A stretch of DNA of 64,000 nucleotides from Fimbriimonadaceae bacterium. GTDB lineage: Bacteria; Armatimonadota; Fimbriimonadia; Fimbriimonadales; Fimbriimonadaceae. Of this stretch, positions 14,593 to 20,586 are shown piece after piece (position 1 is the first letter of the stretch; the number at the start of each line of letters is the position of its first letter). A program made the translations under genes and the position numbers. Below the pieces are notes generated by a model, which did not search any database, was not told where the DNA came from, and saw nothing but the letters and a program-made list of their open reading frames with translations. The stretch is taken from contig CP075366.1 of assembly GCA_019454145.1 (NCBI GenBank), positions 1,157,564-1,221,563 on the forward strand, written 5' to 3'.

Positions 14593-15171
14593 CTAGGCTC
14601 CCATTCCTGATGCCCAGTAACGAGCAAAAACCAGTCGCGCCCGATCAGCAAGTAGCGAAGCCATCCGAGTAGAAAGTGCATCCGCTCGGTACTTCACTGT
14701 GACCGAATCTTGTTTAACTGACTCAATATCCGAAGTGCTGTTTTGGGCAATCATCTCAATCACCCAACTCGCCGCCAAATCACGAACTGCATACCAAACA
14801 TCACCAGGGACAGTCAGTCCATATCCAGCCCGTCCGGCCACCGAAACCGCTCCAGATATTCCTTCAGCCAGCCGAACAACCCGAATCGGAATAATCCCGA
14901 CTGGGCATGCTGTCCATTCAATTTCCTCTTCATTTAGTTTCACCCACTCAATGCTCGCAAACGGCTGAGGCAAAGCCACCGATCCATCTGCCGCTAACTC
15001 AATCTCGGCAACCCCTTCTGCCAAAAAAGGAGAAAAACCGACCAACGATTCCAACTCGGCAACTGCCCTTGCCACCAGCTCCTCAATATCGGCAGAAGGC
15101 AGCGAACTATAACCGCAATCTTGCAAAAATTCACCGACCTGCGTTTCGGTCGGCCACGTATCAAAAGACAT
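14593..15171 (-). CDS. Putative head-tail connector (gp6-like)
   Basis: 192 residues from the ATG at 15171, chosen for the GGGAGGATTATTA ribosome site. The sequence begins W-P-T-E-T-Q-V-G-E-F-L-Q-D-C-G-Y, then a helix (A-R-A-V-A-E-L-E-S-L-V-G-F-S-P-F), a beta hairpin region, and a long C-terminal helical half (V-R-D-L-A-A-S-W-V-I-E-M). This helical shape with a central beta insertion is that of HK97 gp6 or gp15-type connector rings below the portal. There is no portal gene in the window. The role rests on order and general resemblance. Confidence 0.55.
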   Translation of the reverse strand: MSFDTWPTETQVGEFLQDCGYSSLPSADIEELVARAVAELESLVGFSPFLAEGVAEIELAADGSVALPQPFASIEWVKLNEEEIEWTACPVGIIPIRVVRLAEGISGAVSVAGRAGYGLTVPGDVWYAVRDLAASWVIEMIAQNSTSDIESVKQDSVTVKYRADALSTRMASLLADRARLVFARYWASGMGA

Positions 15172-15191
15172 TAATAATCCTCCCTCACACA

Positions 15192-15217
15192 AGGGCGACC
15201 TATTGTTAGGTCACCCT
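15192..15217 (-). terminator. Stem-loop between the capsid and connector genes
   Basis: AGGGCGACCT (15192-15201) pairs with AGGTCACCCT (15208-15217) with one C-A mismatch. It sits 10 nt after the capsid gene stop on the transcribed strand. The U-run is absent, so it may be a partial terminator or RNA-stabilising hairpin that keeps the capsid message more abundant than the downstream genes. Confidence 0.5.
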
Positions 15218-15227
15218 ATATTCATAT

Positions 15228-16457
15228 TTAGCTCAGCCCGGTCAGCTTACAGATCGACTGATCGCGTAGCACTTGAAGCCCTGCCCGAACAACCGCACGG
15301 ATCGCCACTTGGTTGGAGGTGAAATAATCTTCATGTGAATTGCTACTTGCCACTGTCAGTTCGCCGCGGATTTTGATTCTGGAAAAGTCTGTATCAAGCA
15401 CCATTCCTGTACCCGCGGTGAGAGCTTCGCTCGCCACGATTTGCACGCCCCATACTCGGTTCAGCGGTGCATCCCCGGGATGTCCAAACACATATAAACC
15501 ATCAGAGGTTTTGGTCAGCGCTAGCGATTGATAATTATCGCTATGGAGCACCACCAAGTTTGGCTTAGCCCGACCCGACGTTCGCACTTTCGTCATTGCT
15601 TTCATGATCTGATCGAAGGGCGAATCTGTTCCCGCCGCTTGGGAAAGAACCGCCGACTGGTTGTACAAACCCAAGATATTGGAGCCAGTGCCATCCCCAA
15701 CTGTAATCTGCTCATCCAATTTCTGCCGAACCATCAGTTTGAGGTCTTCATCAATGAGTGCACGAACTCCCGGCTCGTCGTCCAGTTGCTCTTCGGTAAT
15801 CGGCAAAAACACACCAATCTTACGGATGTTGACCGTTGCCTCCGAATAAGCGATTGTCGCTTCTTCCAGGCCTACCGTCTCACCTTTTGCTCCAGCCGTA
15901 TTTGTTCTTGTTGACTGCTTCATAAACTTAATCGCGTTTTGATCGGTTTGATCAATGCGGATCAGGTCAAGCAGTTGCGGAGGTCGGGAAATAATCGGTA
16001 CAACCGTTCCATCACGAAGCACATTTGGAGCAAATCCAGAACCGGTGGTCATCGTGTTCTTTACACCGATAAAGGTTAAAGCCGCACGATCAAGTTCAAC
16101 ATCGCTGAACTTTCCGCCCACTCGACCGTTCCAAGCTGAACTCTTCAGAAATTGTTCGGATACCGAATGGGTATCGACCACCGCCGCAACCCGATTGAGC
16201 GGCCGAGAATTCTCAATCTGCTTCGACTCAATAGCTTGAGCATTTTCAAATGCCGATAAAGCAATCTCGTGTTTGGATGCAACTTCGTTGATGTCGTCCA
16301 TCATTCGGCGCAACCCTTCCAGGTCATTAGCAGGGATATCTTTAACCTGCTTGCCGTCAACTAACGATTTTGTTGGGTAGCCATCCCACTTTTGTTTATA
16401 TGCCGCCCGCTTTGATTCAAGCTCACGACCTAATTCAATATGATTAACACTATTCAT
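15228..16457 (-). CDS. HK97-fold major capsid protein
   Basis: 409 residues. Residues 1-100 are a charged helical delta/scaffold region with many E, K and R, expected to be removed by the protease encoded just upstream. The rest matches the phage capsid family: G-S-G-F-A-P-N-V-L-R near 140, P-P-Q-L-L-D-L-I-R-I near 160, an E-loop region with G-A-K-G-E-T-V-G-L-E-E-A, then I-G-V-F-L-P-I-T-E-E-Q-L-D-D, a D-E-Q-I-T-V-G-D-G-T-G segment, and a C-terminal W-G-V-Q-I-V-A-S-E. It should form an icosahedral shell. The frame is fully intact. It could also form a domesticated compartment. Confidence 0.92.
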   Translation of the reverse strand: MNSVNHIELGRELESKRAAYKQKWDGYPTKSLVDGKQVKDIPANDLEGLRRMMDDINEVASKHEIALSAFENAQAIESKQIENSRPLNRVAAVVDTHSVSEQFLKSSAWNGRVGGKFSDVELDRAALTFIGVKNTMTTGSGFAPNVLRDGTVVPIISRPPQLLDLIRIDQTDQNAIKFMKQSTRTNTAGAKGETVGLEEATIAYSEATVNIRKIGVFLPITEEQLDDEPGVRALIDEDLKLMVRQKLDEQITVGDGTGSNILGLYNQSAVLSQAAGTDSPFDQIMKAMTKVRTSGRAKPNLVVLHSDNYQSLALTKTSDGLYVFGHPGDAPLNRVWGVQIVASEALTAGTGMVLDTDFSRIKIRGELTVASSNSHEDYFTSNQVAIRAVVRAGLQVLRDQSICKLTGLS

Positions 16458-16480
16458 TTCTATCTCTCTCTTTCAAAAAT

Positions 16481-17038
16481 CTAATTGGTTGAACCGCTCA
16501 AGTGCTGGTTCCATTCAGTGCTGAGCTGTTCAATAGCCACTAAATCCAGCTCCGTTGCGGACTCCTTCAAATAAGTAACTTCAGCATTTGCCACCGCTGG
16601 CAAAGTTACTAAACTGAACTCTTTGAGTTCAATTTTTTTCAGCAACCGAACCCGCTTTCCATTACGAGTTTCAAACCCCCACTCAAGCGGCAGGTAGCCA
16701 ATACTAAGGCCGACCCGCTTGCCCGCCTGCAGACGTTCCTTCGTCACAGTTTGGGCAGACTGAGCCGCCTCAGTAGAGTGGAATTCCATTCCAACAAACA
16801 ACCCTTTTGCATCTTCTACCGCTTGAGAGATGTAACCAATCGGAATTCCCGAATGGTCGTGACCCACCGCAACGAATCCGCTACGAACGAATTCAGCTAA
16901 GTCACCGTATGCTCCATCCAAAATTACGTCGCCATACGCATCAACAACGTGCTTAATGGAGGCGTATCCTTCCAGAGCCGATCCTAGTTCACACGCAGAG
17001 CCAATCTGCACATCTAGCAAACAAATCTTCCGCTCCAT
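16481..17038 (-). CDS. HK97-family prohead protease
   Basis: 185 residues with the family layout: an N-terminal beta core with G-Y-A-S-I-K-H-V-V-D-A-Y-G-D, the active-site histidine region V-A-V-G-H-D-H-S-G (His60/His62), and the nucleophile region K-R-V-G-L-S-I-G-Y (Ser112), followed by the L-K-E-F-S-L-V-T-L-P-A-V-A-N-A-E strand that closes the fold. It cleaves the scaffold arm of the capsid protein during head maturation. It is the first gene of the minus-strand operon, only about 60 nt after a cellular gene. The portal and terminase genes normally found upstream are absent. Confidence 0.92.
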   Translation of the reverse strand: MERKICLLDVQIGSACELGSALEGYASIKHVVDAYGDVILDGAYGDLAEFVRSGFVAVGHDHSGIPIGYISQAVEDAKGLFVGMEFHSTEAAQSAQTVTKERLQAGKRVGLSIGYLPLEWGFETRNGKRVRLLKKIELKEFSLVTLPAVANAEVTYLKESATELDLVAIEQLSTEWNQHLSGSTN

Positions 17039-17992: not shown

Positions 17993-19165
17993 ATGCCCCT
18001 CAATAAAAAGACTGTACGCGACATTGACCTTTCCGGCAAAAAGATCTTAATCCGATGCGATTTCAATGTTCCGATGGAAAACGGGCAGATTACCGACGAC
18101 ATCCGCATAACGTCGTCACTTCCTACTATTCAGTACTGTTTGGATCAAGGGGCGGCACTCATTCTTGCTTCTCACATGGGCAGACCGAAAGGCAAACCCG
18201 ATCCAGAATTCTCGCTTGCACCTGTCGCGCAAAGGCTCACTGAACTGCTAGGGCAACCAGTAGTCCTCACCTCCGATTGTATCGGCCCCGCAGCCCAAGC
18301 CGCGGCCCAGGCCGTTCAGTCAGGACAAGTGATTCTCCTTCAAAACGTTCGGTACCACAACGAAGAAGAAGCCAACGATCCGGCTTTTGCCAAAGAACTC
18401 GCCAGCCTGGCTGACATCTATGTGAACGATGCGTTCGGTACCGCTCACCGCGCCCATGCCTCCACCGAAGGCATTGCCCACCACCTCCCCGCCGTCGCCG
18501 GATTCCTCATCGAAAAAGAAATCAACTTCCTTGGCAATGCTGTGGAAGACCCCAAACGACCGTTCGTCGCAATCATGGGCGGCGCAAAAGTCAAAGACAA
18601 AATTCAGGTCATCGAATCACTGTTACCAAAAGTTGATCAACTCATCATCGGCGGAGGGATGGCATACACATTTCTCAAAGCGCAGGGTCACGTGATAGGT
18701 AAATCGTTGCTAGACGAAGAATCCCTTGACTACTGCAAAACCTTGCTGACGAATCCTAAAATCGTGTTGCCGACTGATACTGTCGTAGCTCCCGAATTCA
18801 AAGCCGATGCTCCATCCCAAGTGGTGCCTTCCAATGCTATTCCCGCTGATCAAATGGGATTAGATATCGGGCCGGAATCGGCAAAACGGTTCCGAGAAAT
18901 TGCCGCGAACGCCCAAACCGTTTTGTGGAACGGCCCAATGGGAGTTTTTGAATTTGATGCGTTTGCCAACGGCACCAAGCAAGTCGCGCTAGGATTGACT
19001 GAGTGCAAAGGCACGAGCATTGTCGGCGGCGGTGATTCTGCGGCCGCAATCGAAAAGTTTGGGTTTGCAGATAAAGTCACCCATGTCTCCACCGGAGGCG
19101 GTGCATCGCTAGAATTCCTGGAGGGTCAAGTGCTTCCTGGGATTGCCGCATTGCTTGATAAATAA
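17993..19165 (+). CDS. pgk: Phosphoglycerate kinase
   Basis: 390 residues, the usual bacterial length. It catalyses 1,3-bisphosphoglycerate + ADP to 3-phosphoglycerate + ATP in cytosolic glycolysis. The N-domain has I-R-C-D-F-N-V-P and I-T-S-S-L-P-T-I, then [22 protein letters not shown], and E-K-E-I in the hinge. The nucleotide domain has [26 protein letters not shown] and the closing G-G-G-D-S-A-A-A and [13 protein letters not shown]. The gene is monocistronic by spacing; the frame with the internal UGA follows 90 nt later. Confidence 0.98.
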
Positions 19166-19254: not shown

Positions 19255-19425
19255 ATGCTCATCAAAGCAATCTCATCGGCAGTCATCGGAGGTGCGGCCG
19301 GGTTCGGCTACCATCTTTTAATGAAAGCCTCCAACTCCGGATGAATCTCGTGTCATCAACCGGCGGCGCCGGTGATTGCGGGAATCGTGTTAGGACTGAT
19401 CGCGGCCTTGGCATCGCGCGACTGA
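19255..19425 (+). CDS. Candidate selenocysteine-containing two-helix membrane protein (internal UGA)
   Basis: A 56-codon frame, ATG 19255 to TGA 19423-19425, with an in-frame TGA at 19342-19344 (codon 30). Before it are a hydrophobic helix (about 5-24, A-V-I-G-G-A-A-G-F-G-Y) and a short N-S-G loop. After it, in the same frame, come I-S-C-H-Q-P-A-A-P and a second helix (P-V-I-A-G-I-V-L-G-L-I-A-A-L). This is the two-helix hairpin of the small DUF6132-type proteins, whose loop (as I remember it) reads G-x-C-P-I-T-x-N-P. With no gaps, the UGA falls on that Cys, and the later Pro and two Gly also align. A hairpin with a G-led loop lies 10 nt after the UGA. Selenocysteine insertion is the best reading; a recent Cys-to-stop mutation is the alternative. 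No ribosome site is obvious. Confidence 0.55.
19355..19376 (+). promoter_or_regulatory. Bacterial SECIS-like hairpin
   Basis: A 4-bp lower stem (ATCA/TGAT), a bulged A on the 5' side, a 5-bp upper stem (CCGGC/GCCGG) and the apical loop GGC. The hairpin starts 10 nt after the in-frame UGA at 19342, and the loop starts about 20 nt after it. Bacterial SECIS elements bound by SelB lie in this spacing window, carry a 5'-side bulge and have a G among the first loop bases. It is seen by eye; folding was not computed. Confidence 0.5.
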
Positions 19426-19449
19426 GCCACAACCCACCATAATTAACCC

Positions 19450-20586
19450 ATAGAACCGATCAATCACGATCCCGTTGCCGTTTATATCCACACTCCCTTT
19501 TGCCCTTCCAAGTGTGGGTACTGCGATTTTAATTCTTATGCCATGCAGGGCGACATCATGGCGCGGACTACTGCCGCTACGATTACTGAGATCAAAAACT
19601 CTCCGCACCGAGGGCGCCCGGCAAAGACCATCTTTATCGGTGGCGGCACCCCAACATATCTCCCAACCGAACAGCTCGTCGCAATTTTAGAAGCAATCAT
19701 AGAAGCCCATCCCCCAACTGCCGATTGCGAGATCACTTCCGAAGCGAACCCCGGCACCATTGATTTCCCGAAATTTGAGGCAATGCGAAAAGCAGGTTTT
19801 AACCGCTTATCCTTAGGCGCACAAAGTTTCCAAGCTGATGATCTCGTTCGCCTTGGCAGAGTCCATGCCCCGACTCATATCGCGCAAGCCGTCGCCAAAG
19901 CCAAGGCCGCAGGGTTCACAAGTATTAATATTGATCTTATGTTCGCCTTGCCCGGACAATCACCGCGAGCCTGGCAAAACAATCTCGAAACCGCCCTCTC
20001 ACTCGGCACCCAACACCTCAGCCTCTACTGCTTGACCATCGAGCCAAACACTCGGTTTTATCGCCATCACACAAAAGGCATGCTCAACTTGCCGGACGAT
20101 GAAGCCCAAACGCACATGTACTCGCAAGCGATTGAAACAACAAAATCCGCTGGATTGAGTCAGTACGAAATCTCAAACTTCGCACTTCCGGGACACGAAT
20201 CCCGGCACAACCTCGCTTATTGGCGCAACGAAGAATATCTTGCTTATGGCCCTGGCGCGGTTGGTTGCTACTACACGGCTCAAGGTAAATACCGCTACAC
20301 GAATCTCAAGCACCCAGAAGGATATTCGGCGGCAATAGAGGACAACAAACCACTCCACTGTGAGAGTGAAGTTCTCACCGAGCAAGACCAAAACTTTGAA
20401 AAACTCATGCTTGGCCTCAGATTAAATGAAGGGTTGCCAACCATTAATCTAAATCTAGACCTACAGGGGTTACAAAAAGCGATTTCACGAATTTGGATTG
20501 AGATCGAAAACGACCGACTCTTTCTCACGCAGACTGGTCAGCACTTTTGCAGTGAAGTCACACTTTTGTTAGCTCCAACCGATTAA
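19450..20586 (+). CDS. hemW: HemW-like radical SAM protein lacking a standard start codon
   Basis: The product matches HemW, the radical-SAM heme chaperone long annotated as coproporphyrinogen III oxidase-like. It has V-A-V-Y-I-H-T-P-F-C followed by the cluster motif C-P-S-K-C-G-Y-C (Cys at C-x3-C-x2-C), then I-F-I-G-G-G-T-P-T-Y, E-A-N-P-G-T, R-L-S-L-G-A-Q-S-F and Y-E-I-S-N-F-A. The cluster motif lies upstream of the first ATG (19543), so that ATG cannot be the true start. Between the upstream TAA (19444) and the motif there is no ATG, GTG or TTG; ATA at 19450 or ATC at 19459 are the best candidates. I give 19450 provisionally. A point mutation or sequence error at the start is possible. The C-terminal half is typical of HemW. 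Confidence 0.8.
   Translation: MEPINHDPVAVYIHTPFCPSKCGYCDFNSYAMQGDIMARTTAATITEIKNSPHRGRPAKTIFIGGGTPTYLPTEQLVAILEAIIEAHPPTADCEITSEANPGTIDFPKFEAMRKAGFNRLSLGAQSFQADDLVRLGRVHAPTHIAQAVAKAKAAGFTSINIDLMFALPGQSPRAWQNNLETALSLGTQHLSLYCLTIEPNTRFYRHHTKGMLNLPDDEAQTHMYSQAIETTKSAGLSQYEISNFALPGHESRHNLAYWRNEEYLAYGPGAVGCYYTAQGKYRYTNLKHPEGYSAAIEDNKPLHCESEVLTEQDQNFEKLMLGLRLNEGLPTINLNLDLQGLQKAISRIWIEIENDRLFLTQTGQHFCSEVTLLLAPTD

Follow-up and report, generated by a model that had tools for sequence, protein, structure and literature searches.

A 56-residue two-helix membrane protein with a probable selenocysteine in the Armatimonadota

The stretch of DNA analysed here, referred to throughout as the window, comprises 64,000 nucleotides from the genome of a Fimbriimonadaceae bacterium, available as a single contig of 2,758,789 bases. 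A very short gene on its forward strand lies between a phosphoglycerate kinase gene and a radical SAM gene resembling hemW. The features with which this account is concerned, and the evidence behind each, are as follows.

17993..19165, + strand: pgk (phosphoglycerate kinase), the upstream neighbour (Pfam PF00162, 539 bits)
19255..19425, + strand: predicted selenoprotein gene (translation; conservation; synonymous bias before and after the UGA; AlphaFold2 model)
19342..19344, + strand: in-frame TGA, predicted to be read as selenocysteine (Sec), residue 30 (aligned codons; tracks selB)
19346..19383, + strand: SECIS-like hairpin (folds; comparison of TGA and Cys homologues; few compensatory changes)
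19351..19353, + strand: TGT codon of the partner residue Cys33, motif UxxC (Cys positions across 70 homologues)
19450..20586, + strand: hemW-like radical SAM gene, the downstream neighbour (Radical_SAM and HemN_C above cut-off; the same homologue downstream in many relatives)

The frame at 19255-19425 of the forward strand consists of 56 codons, including that for Sec, plus a stop; its translation reads MLIKAISSAVIGGAAGFGYHLLMKASNSG up to an internal TGA and ISCHQPAAPVIAGIVLGLIAALASRD from there to the terminal one. The claim of an earlier, sequence-only reading of this DNA that the frame is broken by the TGA at 19342 alone was borne out, since 19342-19344 is the sole internal TGA and 19423-19425 the terminal TGA. 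In the AlphaFold2 model (mean pLDDT 71.7), helices span residues 2-26 and 37-54 and the Sec loop lies between them. Net charge gave no decision between orientations in the membrane.

Two observations may be made on the flanking DNA. Between the in-frame stop at 19444-19446 and the N-terminal motif YIHTPFCPSKCGYC, which is conserved, the hemW-like gene contains no ATG, GTG or TTG. The first ATG (19543) comes after YIHTPFCPSKCGYC, inside the conserved N-terminus, so that the true start is uncertain; translation may begin at ATA, ATC or another rare codon. A close relative (G004) gives the same N-terminal reading. On the other side, the minus strand at 14593-17038 carries phage head genes (head-tail adaptor, major head protein and head maturation protease; PHROGs), and a prophage or its remnant therefore ends upstream of pgk, at a distance of under 1 kb.

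The internal TGA is a lasting feature of the gene. All eight genomes of the genus carry the gene with exactly one TGA. A profile built from these eight sequences and run on 85 genomes of the host's taxonomic family revealed homologues in 55 of them, where the aligned codon is TGA (38 cases), TGC (15) or TGT (2) and nothing else. Genomes with TGA have selB above cut-off in 37 of 38 cases, as against one of the 17 genomes with Cys (Fisher P 9.5e-12, kinship ignored). Four genera contain both forms, and in each the one selB carrier is also the one TGA carrier (chance 0.004). The two exceptions are a genome with the TGA gene (G084, locus L067) in which selD is present and no selB was detected, and a genome, 77% complete, with the Cys gene (G059, locus L074) in which selB is nevertheless present.

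A search across the phylum gave matches in 70 of 291 genomes, of which 51 are TGA forms and 19 Cys forms. The TGA forms extend to a second family of the same order and to several families farther removed; selB presence was scored within the host family. Named genomes, scanned with the window protein as query, gave no match. Relatives across the phylum keep Sec or Cys largely according to their possession of the selenocysteine machinery, and species without SelB would carry Cys in place of Sec.

This distribution bears directly on the possibility that the TGA is a point mutation of a Cys codon or a sequencing error, leaving a pseudogene or a 29-residue peptide alone. TGA is indeed one base from both TGC and TGT, and a 29-codon product might be made under scarce selenium. 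Nevertheless, the same site holds TGA in 51 genomes, the TGA co-occurs with selB and, as described below, it is tied to a hairpin and followed by codons under purifying selection. The one-base Cys-to-stop mutation, which the sequence-only reading had named as its main alternative, is excluded by the TGA in the homologous loop of these 51 genomes of the phylum, and we regard mutation or error in any form as vanishingly improbable.

The means of inserting selenocysteine are encoded in the host genome, which contains SelA (435 bits), SelB (301 bits, or 334 including the C-terminal part), SelD (338 bits) and a tRNA-Sec with anticodon UCA (72 bits). A search of the genome for selA, selB, selC and selD had been proposed on the strength of the sequence-only reading, and all four are present. 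The selD gene (L018, C1:1998921-1999835) has an in-frame TGA of its own, at the motif NCAG-U-ASK, and so represents a second selenoprotein of this genome; its TGA is followed by a 7-bp hairpin with the loop GUU at 33 nt.

UGA also retains its ordinary meaning. It is the terminal stop in 23 of the 50 readable TGA homologues, as well as in the window gene itself, and is therefore not generally reassigned, in agreement with what had been claimed at the outset from other genes. Were UGA read as some other amino acid, through general recoding or leaky readthrough and with no Sec insertion, the frame would likewise go on past it into a conserved downstream part. Such a reading is very improbable, however, when UGA terminates these same genes, when the only alternative codons at the site are those of Cys and UGA there is tracked by selB, and when a complete Sec machinery is accompanied by a hairpin confined to the UGA genes.

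The hairpin itself consists of an outer stem (19346-19351 with 19378-19383), a middle stem (19355-19358 with 19373-19376) and an upper, apical stem of CCGGC/GCCGG (19360-19364 with 19368-19372), beneath which A 19359 is bulged. The apical loop, GGC at 19365-19367, lies 20 nt past the UGA. A SECIS-like hairpin with a bulged 5' base and a G-led loop, as first described from the letters of the sequence, is thus confirmed. The 48 nt starting at the UGA fold with -20.2 kcal/mol (z -2.1 against dinucleotide shuffles), and the hairpin fits the published bacterial SECIS model, which calls for a loop of 3-9 nt with G in loop positions 1-2, a spacing of 16-37 nt and an MFE <= -7.5 (PMC13188914). A search of Rfam with 19255-19425 gave nothing relevant.

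Comparison between homologues was made with a position-specific criterion, namely a stem of at least 5 bp, a G within the first two loop positions and a loop starting 19-21 nt after the UGA. Such a hairpin is present in 38 of 38 TGA genes of the family, where 4.5 would be expected from synonymous-codon shuffles with local codon usage, and in none of the 17 Cys genes. This test is much sharper than one on the folding energy of the whole region, for which TGA and Cys genes are only modestly separated (median z against synonymous shuffles -1.3 and -0.3, respectively). In one genome (G006) a codon has been inserted and the hairpin shifted relative to the protein, with the 20-nt spacing kept; in two genomes a U-A pair replaces C-G in the stem. 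By a strict count, covariation in the 5-bp stem is weak, with few compensatory changes, because the stem is nearly invariant. In the alignment of orthologues, likewise suggested beforehand, UGA comes with the hairpin, whereas genes with UGC/UGU lack it. Stems of 5-8 bp with the loop at 20 nt occur in four sister-family genomes, while in the distant families of the phylum (L144, L145, L146, L147, L151 and L153) the shared 20-nt hairpin is absent or different; SECIS elements of these distant TGA relatives, if present, look different. Judged by its confinement to TGA genes at a fixed spacing, the hairpin is selected as RNA, and SelB and tRNA-Sec would insert selenocysteine at the UGA at 19342 under its direction.

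The codons beyond the UGA were compared in eight pairs of closely related TGA genes, and were found to differ synonymously in 26 cases and non-synonymously in 11 (P 5e-7, with 30% synonymous assumed under neutrality). The synonymous bias is present on both sides of the UGA. On this substitution pattern, the downstream codons are under purifying selection, and a protein is predicted to be made past the UGA. Taken with the machinery, the orthologue codons and the hairpin, which support the original proposal of Sec in place of Cys, the gene almost certainly encodes a 56-amino-acid two-helix membrane protein with selenocysteine at the UGA at 19342.

The relationship of this protein to known families emerges only through profiles. 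Alone, it scored above cut-off against no model in Pfam or NCBIfam. PF19628 (DUF6132) is absent from its matches at E<=1, and the gathering score of that family, 23.2 bits, was not reached; matches to Myrrcad, XapX/DUF1427 and Ldr_toxin were rejected as sub-threshold and covering about one helix. Distant TGA homologues, on the other hand, exceed the DUF6132 gathering score, with 31.7 and 24.8 bits against 23.2, one example reading ...ACAGGGUPMTSNPVV.... Aligned with hhalign, the profile of the window family and that of Cys-form DUF6132 loci match without gaps and with Sec on the conserved Cys (96.6%, E 4.8e-10); six of the Cys-form loci of the latter profile were scanned, and five lie above the DUF6132 cut-off. 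Profile comparison by way of intermediates links both sides, at 98.4% and 99.5%. The gapless alignment to DUF6132 with UGA on the Cys, which had been put forward at the outset, is in this way upheld by profile comparison and by the Pfam scores of distant TGA homologues, which exceed the threshold.

With the Cys form of PF19628 (consensus GCxSGTCPITSNPY) the window protein shares two short hydrophobic helices, the Gly positions and a conserved Cys at the Sec site; in an alignment of 64 sequences, Gly12, Gly16 and the Sec/Cys position are the only invariant ones. It differs in having Sec in place of Cys, its partner Cys at +3 instead of -5, and ISCHQPAAP where DUF6132 has PITSNPY. Since UISCHQP, with its second Cys at +3, stands where the Cys-form loci have a CPITSNPY-type motif and their second Cys at -5, we consider the protein a relative of DUF6132 and not a member. 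From the profile comparisons, it is a divergent relative at the level of the superfamily.

Two groups of known selenoproteins invite comparison. Catalogued UxxC selenoproteins such as Sec-thioredoxin and Sec-glutaredoxin (PMC13188914) share with the window protein the UxxC motif, a UGA with a downstream hairpin and Cys homologues in species without Sec machinery. However, the window protein, with 56 residues and two membrane helices, is without the thioredoxin fold, and no listed family matches it. The YeeE/YedE thiosulfate transporter selenoprotein (PMC13188914) is, similarly, a membrane protein with Sec and is tied to sulfur handling, but its motif is GUxSG (PMC13188914) and PF04143, its Pfam family, was absent from the hits of the window protein.

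A 2026 catalogue lists 119 prokaryotic selenoprotein families and subfamilies (PMC13188914). Neither DUF6132 nor a comparable two-helix protein is found in it, or among the new families of a second study (PMC12013277). A literature search found no report of this selenoprotein family, which is an absence of report in the sources consulted and not proof of novelty, and no paper on selenoproteins of Fimbriimonas or Armatimonadota. The family is thus apparently undescribed and adds to the 119 families and subfamilies catalogued. It is very small, membrane-bound and spread across the phylum, and gene callers that terminate at UGA would cut the gene to 29 codons, making it easily overlooked.

Sec at a position where Cys is usual provides a strong chemical handle on DUF6132, a family of undescribed function found in many phyla, and points to redox or persulfide chemistry. 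A single Cys lies near the Sec or Cys in 67 of the 70 homologues, at +3/+4 or at -3 to -7 and never on both sides; the remaining three (G017, G066 and G155) have no nearby partner Cys. The usual motif is UxxC, while in the Cys-form DUF6132 proteins the partner is at -5. A resolving cysteine would be expected to show such a pattern. A loop Sec near one Cys, here as UxxC, suggests a reversible selenenylsulfide bond, through which the protein could carry out thiol/disulfide or persulfide redox chemistry at the membrane before being reduced again by a thioredoxin-type partner. Because of the UxxC/partner-Cys motif and the gene neighbours described below, we put the chances of this membrane redox role with thioredoxin-type re-reduction at a little under even. 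Somewhat more tentative is the notion of a minimal membrane Sec relay, in which the loop Sec would pass on electrons or sulfane sulfur and the resolving Cys would have swapped sides while the Sec stayed fixed. The protein may accordingly be described as a putative Sec/Cys redox protein anchored in the membrane, whose substrates might be sulfane sulfur or hydroperoxides.

The genes around the homologues bear on the same question. In 25 genomes a hemW homologue follows the gene downstream, often at a distance of some tens of bases; these counts come from BLAST clusters, a strict regular-expression search with the HemW N-terminus having matched 9 genomes only. This arrangement speaks for a different role for the selenoprotein, in which Sec would serve heme or metal handling together with the HemW-like protein, and not thiol/persulfide redox. 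We consider that role unlikely. The hemW neighbour is limited to part of one family, relatives elsewhere adjoin OsmC, thioredoxin, rhodanese and DsrE genes, and a single partner Cys that may lie on either side is more in keeping with a resolving Cys than with a fixed metal site.

In five genomes from other families of the phylum, the homologue is adjoined by an OsmC-like gene, confirmed by Pfam in two. Cys-form DUF6132 loci of other phyla, found by a pattern demanding a Cys codon in named genomes, have as neighbours genes for thioredoxin, rhodanese, a metallo-beta-lactamase/rhodanese fusion, a pyridine-nucleotide disulfide oxidoreductase, OsmC, DUF302 and DsrE. The neighbourhood pattern, taken descriptively, points to thiol and persulfide handling. 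Of the 'redox or metal-binding' protein originally envisaged, redox is hence the better guess, drawn from motif and context, while no support was found for metal binding. The sequence-only reading had missed the second Cys at +3 in the UxxC motif, the switching of the partner Cys from one side to the other, and the genomic context. Finally, a small gene for an FmdB-like zinc ribbon adjoins the DUF6132-type gene in two distant phyla, at L145 (G222) and L174.
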